Below, one piece after another: positions 23,401-26,881 of a stretch of DNA of 64,000 nucleotides. The translations under genes and the position numbers were made by a program. The first letter of the stretch is position 1, and every line of letters begins with the position of its first letter. The notes beneath the pieces are model-generated. The model had not been told where the DNA came from, made no database searches, and saw only the letters and a list, made by a program, of their open reading frames with translations. The stretch covers positions 1,432,001 to 1,496,000 of the forward strand of contig NZ_RWJI01000001.1 of NCBI RefSeq assembly GCF_003933235.1, written 5' to 3'. The DNA is from Sphingorhabdus wooponensis (GTDB lineage: Bacteria; Pseudomonadota; Alphaproteobacteria; Sphingomonadales; Sphingomonadaceae).

Positions 23401-25434
23401 CTATCCCTCAATCTTCGAAAAGTCTGCCACTTGAGTTACCGCATCGCGGAACCGCGCAAGTAGGCCCAAACGAAACGCCCGTTTGGCCGGATCCGGATCA
23501 TTGACCATAACGCCTTCAAAAAAGGCATCAATAGGCGCGCGTAAAGTCGCCAATGCCGCCATCGCGCCTTCGAAATCTTCGATGGACAAGGCGGCAGCGG
23601 CTTTGGGCTCCGCCGCGTCTAGCGCGGTGCGAAGGGCAAGCTCTTCCGTCACCAAGTCAGCCGGCGCAGGTGCACCTGCATCAACGCCTTCGGCCTGCTT
23701 CAATATATTCGCCGCACGTTTATAGGCCGCCAATAGGTTCGCGCCCTCGGCGGTCGTGACATAGGCCTGCAACGCCTTCACCCGCGCTAGCAGCCGGACA
23801 AGATCGTCCTCGCCACCAAGGCTAAACACCGCGTCGATGAGATCGTGTCGGACGCCCGCCTCGCGTTGCTGGACTTTGAGGCGGTCGATTAAAAATTCCT
23901 CAAGCGTATCGAAGCTGGCGCATGCGCCGCTTGCAACAAGCATTTCCTTCAATGAACAGCGTAAATCGTTTTGAAGTAGCAAAGATAAGAACCCAATCGC
24001 TGCGCGACGTAACGCAAACGGATCCTTCGAACCCGTGGGCGGCATTCCGGCCGCAAAAAACTGCGCCAGCGTATCCAACTTATCCGCCAAACTCACAGCC
24101 ACCGTCACCGGAGCATTGGGGACATCATCCCCCTGCCCAACCGGCTTATAATGGTCGCGGATGGCGTCGGCGACGGCGTCGCTCTCGCCTTGTGCGCGGG
24201 CGTAATAGCCGCCCATGATGCCTTGCAATTCGGGGAATTCACCGACCATGCCGGTGACGAGATCCGCCTTGCACAAACGCGCCGCGCGTTCGGCGGCATC
24301 GGCAGTCGCGCCCTTGACGATACCCTCTTCCGCCAACCAACGTGCCAGCTTCGCCACACGTTCAACTTTGTCGGCAACGCTGCCCAATTTTTCATGGAAT
24401 GTGATCTGTGCCAATTTCTGCGCTTGGCTATCCAGCGCGACCTTTAGGTCCTGTTCCCAGAAGAATTTTGCATCAGACAATCGCGCGGCTAGGACCTTTT
24501 CATTGCCTGCAACAATCGCTGCTCCGCCGTCATGCGCGTCAATATTCGCGGTGCAGACAAAAGCGTTGGCGAGCTTGCCCGTGCTATCATGGCAGACAAA
24601 ATATTTCTGGTTCACGCGCGCGGTCAGTTGAATGACCTCTTGCGGCACGTCCAGAAATGCGGCGTCGAAGCGGCCAAGCATCGGTACAGGCCATTCGGTC
24701 AGGCCCGCATTTTCAATGACCAAACCTTCATCTTCCACCAAGGTCAGGCCAGCAGCCTGCGCCGCCGCCTTTGCACCGTCACGGATGATACGGCAGCGTT
24801 CGGAAAAATGGACGAGGACATGGGCCGCGCGCAGCTTTTCGATATAATCCCCTGCATTGCCGATGGTAATAGCGCCGCTGTGATGGAAGCGATGACCCAT
24901 CGTCTCCGCGCCGCTCACAATGCCGTCAATTTCGCAATGCACCACCGCATCGCCGAGCAAAGCTACAATGCCCTGCAATGGGCGCACCCAGCGCAGGCTT
25001 TCGGTCGAAACCGATGCTGCGCCCCAGCGTTGCGATTTCGGCCATGGGAAGGCGCGGATGATCGCGGGGATAGCCTCTGCCAAAACATCGGCCGTCTGAC
25101 GCCCTGCCTTTTCAACTACCGCATAATAGACACCATCGCGTTCGACCAACTGGTCTTGCGACAGGCCAGCTTTACGCAGAAAGCCTTCCATCGCCTGCGG
25201 CGGCGCACCGACCTTTGGCCCTTTCGTCTCTTCAGACACAGCCTCAGTCGCCAACGGCAAGCCAGTCGCGATCAACGCAAGACGGCGCGGCGTAGCAAAA
25301 ACTTCGACCGACGCCGCAGAAAGCCCAGCCTTGGTCAACGCATCGTTAAACAGACGGGCCAAGTCTTCCTTGGCCTTCACTTGCATCCGCGCGGGAATTT
25401 CTTCGGAGCGCAATTCAAGCAGGAAGTCGGTCAT
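23401..25434 (-). CDS. glyS: Glycyl-tRNA synthetase beta subunit
   Basis: 677 residues, of normal length, starting LLELRSEEIPARMQ as expected for the beta chain of the alpha2-beta2 enzyme. The C-terminal part holds the HD-like and anticodon-binding-like domains. The ATG overlaps by 4 bp the stop of an inserted DUF559 gene instead of following glyQ directly, so expression of this essential subunit depends on read-through of the insert. Confidence 0.97.
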   Translation of the reverse strand: MTDFLLELRSEEIPARMQVKAKEDLARLFNDALTKAGLSAASVEVFATPRRLALIATGLPLATEAVSEETKGPKVGAPPQAMEGFLRKAGLSQDQLVERDGVYYAVVEKAGRQTADVLAEAIPAIIRAFPWPKSQRWGAASVSTESLRWVRPLQGIVALLGDAVVHCEIDGIVSGAETMGHRFHHSGAITIGNAGDYIEKLRAAHVLVHFSERCRIIRDGAKAAAQAAGLTLVEDEGLVIENAGLTEWPVPMLGRFDAAFLDVPQEVIQLTARVNQKYFVCHDSTGKLANAFVCTANIDAHDGGAAIVAGNEKVLAARLSDAKFFWEQDLKVALDSQAQKLAQITFHEKLGSVADKVERVAKLARWLAEEGIVKGATADAAERAARLCKADLVTGMVGEFPELQGIMGGYYARAQGESDAVADAIRDHYKPVGQGDDVPNAPVTVAVSLADKLDTLAQFFAAGMPPTGSKDPFALRRAAIGFLSLLLQNDLRCSLKEMLVASGACASFDTLEEFLIDRLKVQQREAGVRHDLIDAVFSLGGEDDLVRLLARVKALQAYVTTAEGANLLAAYKRAANILKQAEGVDAGAPAPADLVTEELALRTALDAAEPKAAAALSIEDFEGAMAALATLRAPIDAFFEGVMVNDPDPAKRAFRLGLLARFRDAVTQVADFSKIEG

Positions 25435-25904
25435 ACTAAATCCTCCCCGCTTGCGGGGAGGGGGACCGTGCTTGCACGGTGGAGGGGGCTATTAGTCCAA
25501 GCGCAAATGGTTTGTAGCACAGTGTCCAAATCTTTTAGCACATCAACGGCAGCAATCCGAAGAACCTTATATCCAGCCGCCTGCATCATCGCATTACGGG
25601 CATCATCACGCTGAGGTCGATCTCCTCGATCATGCGCCTCGCCATCAATTTCGATCACCAGCTTGGCCGCAGCGCAATAAAAATCTGCAACATAGGCCCC
25701 GATGGGATGTTGCCGTCGGAATTTCACGCCGATCTTGTTGGTACGGACTTTTTCCCACAATAGAACCTCTGGTAACGTCATTTTGCGGCGCAGCTTGCGC
25801 GCGTTGTAAACGACCGGGCGCTGTAGGGTCTGCAAGCCCCCTCCACCACGCTTCGCGCGGTCCCCCTCCCCGTTCCGGGGAGGATTTTGCGTGGACGCCA
25901 TCAT
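25431..25904 (-). CDS. DUF559 (Vsr/PD-(D/E)XK-like) endonuclease-domain protein
   Basis: 157 residues from the ATG at 25904. The core (about 33-135) has [37 protein letters not shown] and [10 protein letters not shown], the conserved D..E.D pattern of the DUF559/Vsr-like restriction-endonuclease fold. The first ~20 and last ~19 residues ([36 protein letters not shown]) are encoded by the inverted repeats listed separately. It overlaps both glyQ (ATGA) and glyS (ATGA). Probably an inserted cassette; whether it cuts DNA is untested. Confidence 0.85.
25438..25490. repeat. Inverted hairpin repeat, glyS side of DUF559 cassette
   Basis: 53 bp containing two hairpins: CTCCCCGC-TT-GCGGGGAG at 25443-25460 and ACCGTGC-TT-GCACGGT at 25465-25480. 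It matches the reverse complement of 25835-25887 along its whole length apart from the hairpin loops. It encodes the C-terminal tail of the DUF559 protein. Confidence 0.88.
25835..25887. repeat. Inverted hairpin repeat, glyQ side of DUF559 cassette
   Basis: 53-bp inverted partner of 25438-25490, with hairpins CCTCCCCG-TTC-CGGGGAGG and ACCACGC-TTC-GCGCGGT (imperfect). Differences from its partner sit mostly in loops and are compensated in stems, which suggests the folded form matters. It encodes the N-terminal tail of the DUF559 protein. Confidence 0.88.
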
Positions 25905-26788
25905 ACTGCCCATCCGTTCTTTTCCATCCATGCCTGGCAACTGCCTTTGGCAAGGTCGCGGACGCGGCCCATATAGCTTGCGCGTTCCTGCACAGAAATA
26001 ACGCCGCGCGCTTGCAATATGTTGAAGATATGGCTGGCCTTAATTGCTTGCTCATAAGCGGGAATGGGCAAAGCATGTTGCAAGCAGCTTTCGCATTCTG
26101 CCGTCGCTTTTTTGAAGGCATCAAACAACATGTCGGTGTCGGCAATTTCGAAATGATAGGTGCTCATCTGCCGTTCGTTTTCGCGGAATATATCGCCATA
26201 GGTCACCGCCGGACGATCCGCCGTTGCGTTGTTATAGACGAGGTCGAAAATGCTGTCCTTGTTCTGGATATACATCGCCAGACGTTCCAGACCATAAGTC
26301 AGCTCGCCCGAAACAGGTTTGCAATCAAAGCCGCCCATTTGCTGAAAATAGGTGAACTGCGTCACCTCCATGCCGTCGCACCAGATTTCCCAGCCAAGGC
26401 CCCATGCGCCCAGCGTTGGGCTTTCCCAGTCATCTTCCACAAAGCGGATGTCGTGAAGCAAAGGGTCAATTCCAATCGCCTTTAACGAACCGAGATACAG
26501 CTCCTGCAAATTTGGCGGACTTGGTTTCAGGATGACTTGATATTGATAATAAGCGCCCAGCCGATTGGGGTTTTCGCCATAACGGCCATCGGTAGGCCGG
26601 CGCGATGGCTGCACAAAGGCCGCGTTCCATGGGTCAGGCCCCAGCGCGCGCAGGGTCGTGGCGGTGTGGAACGTACCCGCACCCATTTCCATGTCATAAG
26701 GCTGCAATATCGCACAACCCTGCTTGCCCCAATAATCATGAAGCGTGAGGATCAGATCCTGAAAACTAAGTGGAGCAATGTCAGACAT
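25901..26788 (-). CDS. glyQ: Glycyl-tRNA synthetase alpha subunit
   Basis: 295 residues from the ATG at 26788, giving the usual N-terminus ([20 protein letters not shown]). A GTG at 26854 would add 22 residues not typical of the family. Class II motifs are recognisable: [38 protein letters not shown] and [10 protein letters not shown]. Forms the alpha2-beta2 enzyme with glyS, from which it is separated by the DUF559 cassette. Confidence 0.96.
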
Positions 26789-26881
26789 GGCCAGCCATTG
26801 GCGGAGAAGCGGCGCTAAATCAAGGTTCTGAATAAACGCATGGGTTTTTGTCACTGGTGCATAGCATTATGTAAGGTGTTG

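Follow-up and report, generated by a model that had tools for sequence, protein, structure and literature searches.

The DUF559 cassette between glyQ and glyS

We analyzed a 64,000-nucleotide stretch of the Sphingorhabdus wooponensis genome (contig NZ_RWJI01000001.1, positions 1,432,001 to 1,496,000; hereafter the window), in which a small nuclease gene of the DUF559 family, bracketed by hairpin-forming inverted repeats (arms), lies between the glycyl-tRNA synthetase genes glyQ and glyS (Table 1). This cassette is probably a gene-bearing member of a mobile palindrome family. As the initial annotation had it, the nuclease gene overlaps each of its two neighbors by 4 bp; neither glyQ nor glyS is damaged, because ATGA stands on both sides of the insert. 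The DUF559 protein scored 108.9 bits, against a curated PF04480 cut-off of 20.6, and matched PDB entry 3hrl (E = 5.1e-14); its gene is the only one of this family in the window's genome. Residues R39, E46, W50, Q65, D74, F75, E85, D87, H91, D100, R103, and R116 were invariant in DUF559 alignments of 68 and 63 rows, and D74, E85, D87, and H91, together with other invariant residues, likely form the active site, which is intact and whose catalytic role is predicted from the sequence. A defense system was considered and rejected, PADLOC returning only weak partial matches (best, 2.4e-5). The protein was matched by 2 of 50,697 phage records and by 39 of 72,556 plasmid records, some of the latter being whole chromosomes.

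Table 1. Features of the cassette and its host genes in the window
Feature	Position	Strand	Evidence or remark
glyQ, glycyl-tRNA synthetase alpha, intact host gene	25901..26854	-	Pfam, 2.4e-143
AGTATGA, upstream copy of the 7-bp direct repeat flanking the insert	25901..25907	-	Target duplication possible, unproven
ATGA overlap, DUF559 start/glyQ stop	25901..25904	-	Sequence
DUF559 (Vsr-like, PD-(D/E)XK type) nuclease gene, 157 aa	25431..25904	-	PF04480, E = 1.5e-31
5' arm of the DUF559 gene, composed of AAATCCTCCCC..GGGGAGG hairpin, GGACC, inner hairpin, GGAGGGGG	25835..25887	-	
DUF559 domain core	25500..25808 (C1:1457500-1457808)	-	Genome search
3' arm of the DUF559 gene, inverted, with the anatomy of the 5' arm	25438..25490	+	
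AGTATGA, downstream copy of the 7-bp direct repeat flanking the insert	25431..25437	-	
ATGA overlap, glyS start/DUF559 stop	25431..25434	-	Sequence
glyS, glycyl-tRNA synthetase beta, intact host gene	23401..25434	-	Pfam, 2.4e-187

Both arms are 53 nt long and align over their full length, and the DUF559 open reading frame starts and finishes inside them. Folded as DNA, each arm forms two tandem hairpins on either strand (z scores of -2.7 to -4.0), so that alignment and folding together confirm the 53-bp inverted repeats initially described at the ends of the gene. The accompanying claim that differences between the arms fall in loops or are compensated held for both loops and, largely, for the inner stem, where one G.T wobble is left. 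Because the loops differ, a repeat finder reports the arm pair as two pieces, one of 18 nt at 94% and one of 13 nt at 100%. Stop codons are absent from both arms in all six frames, and the arms are therefore readable as protein tails.

We then compared 48 arms from 30 of 101 loci, namely, those matched by a strict arm pattern. The inner hairpin was present in 34 different sequences among the 48 arms, and 91% of its pairs held (86% Watson-Crick and 5% G.T), compared to 70% when halves of different arms were combined as a control. Relative to the DUF559 gene, each of the three frames was represented among left arms (15, 4, and 4 cases), and right arms lay mostly in one (22 of 25). Arms free of stop codons in six frames made up 39 of the 48, compared to 33% of shuffled sequences and 14% of random pieces. 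Since pairing is kept through sequence change and the frames vary, it is the DNA structure that is conserved, and the peptide encoded by the arms seems incidental.

Arms and insertion sites of other DUF559 genes

Inverted repeats were scored within 200 nt of the DUF559 core in both directions, with 1443 positions from the same loci as controls. The first set comprised 60 loci, left from 64 after removal of L002, a duplicate of L001, and of L022, L024, and L045, which lie at contig ends. A score of at least 16 was reached at 47 of the 60 DUF559 loci and at 4 of the 1443 control positions; at a threshold of 14, the counts were 53 of 60 and 26 of 1443, respectively. The window's own arm pair, scoring 15.8, falls under the higher threshold and over the lower one. 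In a second set of 30 loci across the phylum, which were those returned for the top matches and not a random sample, 12 scored at least 16, compared to 3 of 416 controls. Positive loci included members of the Planctomycetota (L058 and L063) and the Moraniibacteriota (L061). The tails that the initial annotation mentioned for DUF559 proteins elsewhere have a counterpart in similar arms at the genes surveyed.

Cassettes were also found at other genes. In several Sphingomonas genomes, the cassette lies between two transhydrogenase alpha genes (identified by Pfam in L098 and by resemblance in the others). At L051, it stands in frame inside valyl-tRNA synthetase (ValRS), giving an open frame of 1196 aa whose alignment to Thermus ValRS breaks at residue 473 and resumes at residue 476; the order at L052 is the same up to the contig end. 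At L120 (1-2772, minus strand), an asparagine synthetase-like protein has its glutaminase domain interrupted by an in-frame cassette, on either side of which it aligns to residues 1-90 and 94-213 of 7ylz, and a further repeat-like block without nuclease, also in frame, follows downstream. At L113, the open frame continues from DUF559 into MurB. Pfam detected no intein or intron domain in the inserts scanned, which contained DUF559-type nuclease domains alone. At L123, a type I HsdM methylase continues in frame into DUF559, which may be a restriction fusion rather than a cassette.

Gene-free copies of the palindromes

The palindrome pattern CCTCYCCN{2,20}GGRGAGG matched six places in the window's genome: the two arms, the two halves of a gene-free inverted pair, a single arm, and a simple hairpin. 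The gene-free pair, 126 nt long, lies between putative sucD and sucA (both named by eye), so that a hairpin pair without the gene, looked for in the same genome on the basis of the initial annotation, does exist. Several relatives have this pair at the same position, and others, e.g., L218, L219, and L221, lack it. In 19 of 20 stretches from other genomes, chosen mostly as neighboring matches and hence not giving an unbiased rate, we found inverted palindrome pairs spaced 91 to 172 nt start to start, with no room for the gene; most of these 19 pairs show the inner hairpin by eye. The twentieth stretch (L153) has a gap of DUF559 size.

In genome G217, the cassette arms are identical at 100 of 101 positions, and a second gene-bearing copy, 86% alike, lies nearby. 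Arm-like copies listed in G217, G215, and G361 are 87 to 98% alike. At the site orthologous to that of the G217 cassette, the flanks are 10 to 641 nt apart in all 27 of the other loci read, and six of the small inserts there hold gene-free palindromes; the nearest relative, G361, was outside the 27 loci and has about 1.4 kb at that site.

Association of palindromes and DUF559 across genomes

Among 61 relatives, the median number of palindromes was 28 in genomes with DUF559 (n = 31) and 2 in genomes without (n = 30; p = 1.2e-8), the weak or partial DUF559 matches of G004, G041, and G049 being set to absent. After four matches were subtracted for each DUF559 gene, the difference remained (p = 0.00046). 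The raw difference was seen within the window's own genus (p = 0.0011), and that among the other genera persisted after the same subtraction (p = 5.8e-5).

We also sampled 299 genomes of the window's phylum, Pseudomonadota judging by the named relatives. Genomes were classed as palindrome rich when their excess over a reversed-pattern control was at least 15, and DUF559 was called strong at E < 1e-20, the 30 weak matches (E of 1e-20 to 1e-3) being grouped with genomes without it. Of 86 strong-DUF559 genomes, 71 were palindrome rich, compared to 10 of the 213 others (odds ratio, 96; Fisher p = 2.5e-42), and label permutation within the 15 families having both states gave p = 5e-5. Five palindrome-rich genomes (G031, G193, G260, G114, and G218) gave no DUF559 match; in these, the enzyme may have diverged or been lost. 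For Y1_Tnp, the RAYT/IS200 domain, no positive link to palindromes was found in the same 299 genomes, 33 of 150 genomes with the domain and 48 of 149 without it being palindrome rich, where presence meant any match at E <= 0.001, a looser threshold than that for DUF559; the window's genome has 0 Y1_Tnp matches. The association across genomes suggests that DUF559 may be the enzyme that spreads the repeats, and these statistics fit the analogy to REP elements and their transposases drawn at the outset.

History of the glyQ-glyS site

Among the 30 glyQ-glyS junctions read, one carries the gene (the window), seven carry short remnants, two carry other repeats, and 20 have no insert. All seven remnants begin at the same place, six with AATCCTCCCC and one in diverged form, and 13 of the 20 insert-free junctions are a bare 4-bp stop/start overlap (10 ATGA and 3 GTGA). 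DUF559 occupies glyQ-glyS in eight further loci (L025, L032-L037, and L045, the last starting inside the cassette). In a tree built on glyQ and glyS, the states are interleaved: a remnant stands next to an empty site in L070/L071 (support, 100) and in L073/L072 (98), and the filled window stands next to the empty L067, at a weak fork (support, 47). In the DUF559 tree, the glyQ-glyS copies are clustered without forming one clade (3 changes; 0 of 500 shuffles as low). We considered a recent insertion at this site and rejected it, since clustered copies and interleaved filled, remnant, and empty states fit an old insertion better. An old insertion followed by recurrent loss, partly clean, thus appears likelier, although allele exchange across species, or insertion more than once at a single base, could also account for the states.

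The comparison of relatives therefore brought to light both empty and remnant junctions; it is not the case that all relatives are filled and that the repeats are absent elsewhere, the outcome that would have spoken against a mobile unit. By contrast, the idea that insertion into an essential operon would make loss costly did not stand: close relatives differ in state and most junctions have no insert, so that loss, partly clean, looks frequent. The direct repeat around the insert, 7 bp long in the window, ranges from about 3 to 7 bp (by eye) among relatives and is partly needed for the stop and start codons anyway.

Other palindromes were noticed at the same genes. At glyQ-glyS of L066, L073, L085, L087, L088, and L090, the hairpin remnant of the first family seems to enclose palindromes of a second one (GTCACCCTGAAC..GTTCAGCATGACG). 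Within glyS of this genus (L065-L094), in-frame inserts at residues ~377 and ~591 apparently represent several unrelated palindrome families using the same two positions; by eye, the inserts belong to the cassette's family in L082, L084, and L087 and to other families in other relatives, so that coding palindromes seem to be a wider habit of these genomes.

Proposed mechanism and alternative explanations

Our proposal, which we hold to be probable, is that the cassette is a gene-bearing copy of a mobile palindrome family organized like REP/RAYT systems, with DUF559 as its probable mobility enzyme. A mobile or selfish unit, as first suggested, is indeed what it looks like, given the gene-free pair in the same genome, the empty and remnant sites, and the similar arms elsewhere. 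In REP/RAYT systems, a nuclease gene is flanked by short palindromes that are also dispersed in inverted pairs. DUF559 palindromes are likewise dispersed in inverted pairs and bracket their partner gene, but the enzyme is PD-(D/E)XK/Vsr-like and not a Y1 HUH enzyme, and thus an unrelated nuclease. Rickettsia palindromic elements are also inserted in frame in protein genes; unlike the cassette, they are not known to have an associated nuclease gene. The Vsr-like (EDxHD) and PD-(D/E)XK homing endonucleases, families covered by PMC6083498, resemble the cassette in being small nuclease genes residing in essential genes without evident harm, whereas the cassette is distinguished by its hairpin arms and by the many sites, rather than one homing site, at which gene-free copies occur.

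In the mechanism that we envisage, the DUF559 nuclease would recognize the folded ends, as hairpins or intrastrand triplexes, most likely when these are single stranded at replication forks. It would cut or nick there, leading to the copying or movement of its own cassette and, in trans, of gene-free pairs. Because the arms are stop free in all frames and ATGA stands on both sides, glyQ would keep its stop, glyS would keep its start, and the DUF559 gene would be translated within the operon. Clean deletion at a later time, from one short direct repeat to the other, would restore the glyQ-glyS overlap.

Several points weigh against this proposal. No cleavage or movement by DUF559 has been observed, and a Caulobacter DUF559 protein has been read as a mismatch-repair nuclease (PMC12907096), although the two roles need not be exclusive. 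The flank score stayed under 16 at 13 of 60 loci in the first set and 18 of 30 in the second, and an inverted pair spans the gene in four of eight plasmid-collection loci (L098, L099, L101, and L102, the others being L095, L096, L097, and L100), so that arms are common but not universal at DUF559 genes. Ten palindrome-rich genomes have no strong DUF559 match (two have weak ones), nine strong-DUF559 genomes have at most 6 palindrome matches, the window's genome among them, and the palindrome excess in the window's own genus is not significant after the four-per-gene subtraction (p = 0.19). Moreover, the glyQ-glyS cassette looks old, not freshly inserted, and no target duplication of fixed length was found at glyQ-glyS, the G217 site, or sucD-sucA, so that we do not claim one.

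Some of these points recur in the alternatives. DUF559 might be a Vsr-type mismatch-repair or housekeeping nuclease, the palindromes gathering through tolerant operon gaps or through its repair or tolerance of hairpin DNA. In line with this, palindromes of other families also accumulate at glyQ-glyS and inside glyS; however, inverted pairs surround the gene at most of the loci scored (47 of 60), the gene-free copies are similar in anatomy, and there is no need for a tolerance factor to lie inside ValRS or between flanking repeats, all of which makes this explanation unlikely. It also seems quite unlikely that the palindromes are moved by another, unrecognized enzyme, with DUF559 as cargo between two copies, as in a composite transposon. 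The G217 arms, each about 100 bp and matching gene-free copies in both orientations, would suit such an arrangement, as would the repeat-rich genomes without a strong DUF559 match, but it is hard to see why the same cargo should then be present in 71 of 81 palindrome-rich genomes, at an odds ratio of 96, and Y1 transposases show no positive link. Under a third view, the cassette has become a domesticated operon gene of an ordinary kind, and its hairpins control the translation or the mRNA decay of glyQ-glyS. The apparent age of the cassette at this site and the gene overlaps, which suggest translational coupling, are compatible with this view. With 20 of 30 junctions insert free and both genes kept, and with left arms in all three reading frames, we consider it very improbable.

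Possible relation to BoxC and intrastrand-triplex repeats

BoxC, PIT, and intrastrand-triplex repeats have been known since the 1990s, with no known mover. By eye, their plan, in which a pyrimidine-loop-purine stem precedes another purine tract, resembles that of the window arms. The window arms differ from TMECO repeats in that an additional hairpin separates the stem from this second tract, and they do not appear to fit the exact TMECO consensus; scanned on the Escherichia coli K-12 stretch alone, this consensus gave one match.

TMECO no. 9 is placed at 1,351,239-1,351,204 of MG1655 in Table 1 of a 2015 survey (PMC4666352). In NC_000913, this motif is found past the end of ycjD (1,351,407-1,351,760), at a distance of 167 bp. 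The ycjD gene is of the DUF559 family, and its last codons (SPSP) fall in a decayed partner hairpin; partner arms were found in the E. coli locus L095. The accessible part of the survey states that no mobility activity was ever found near TMECO and mentions neither DUF559 nor ycjD (PMC4666352). A sapF-ycjD-fabI query was at least 80% present in one place in 3333 of 5426 E. coli genomes, and in one genome without this arrangement, fabI has different neighbors. In the ycjD-fabI gap of E. coli K-12 (L234), a stretch resembles by eye a second ycjD 3' end, like a decayed older DUF559. Among the matches listed in a literature search, outside which lay bioRxiv and most subscription papers, no title or abstract opening linked DUF559 to the repeats.

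We tentatively suggest, as a reading about as likely as not, that the mobility enzymes lacking so far for BoxC/intrastrand-triplex palindromes across bacteria are DUF559 proteins. These would define a class of mobile element with a Vsr-like nuclease acting on hairpin or triplex ends. Free of stops, such ends would let the element settle within genes as well as at operon overlaps, whether as an in-frame insert or as protein tails, and E. coli YcjD would be the laboratory example.

If true, this reading would explain the recurrent GEGD/GGGG-rich tails of DUF559 proteins and some in-frame insertions in enzymes, and it would give a role to DUF559, a family of "unknown function" in Pfam. The link between DUF559 and the repeats (odds ratio, 96), together with the position of ycjD near a listed TMECO, makes the question testable in a laboratory strain.
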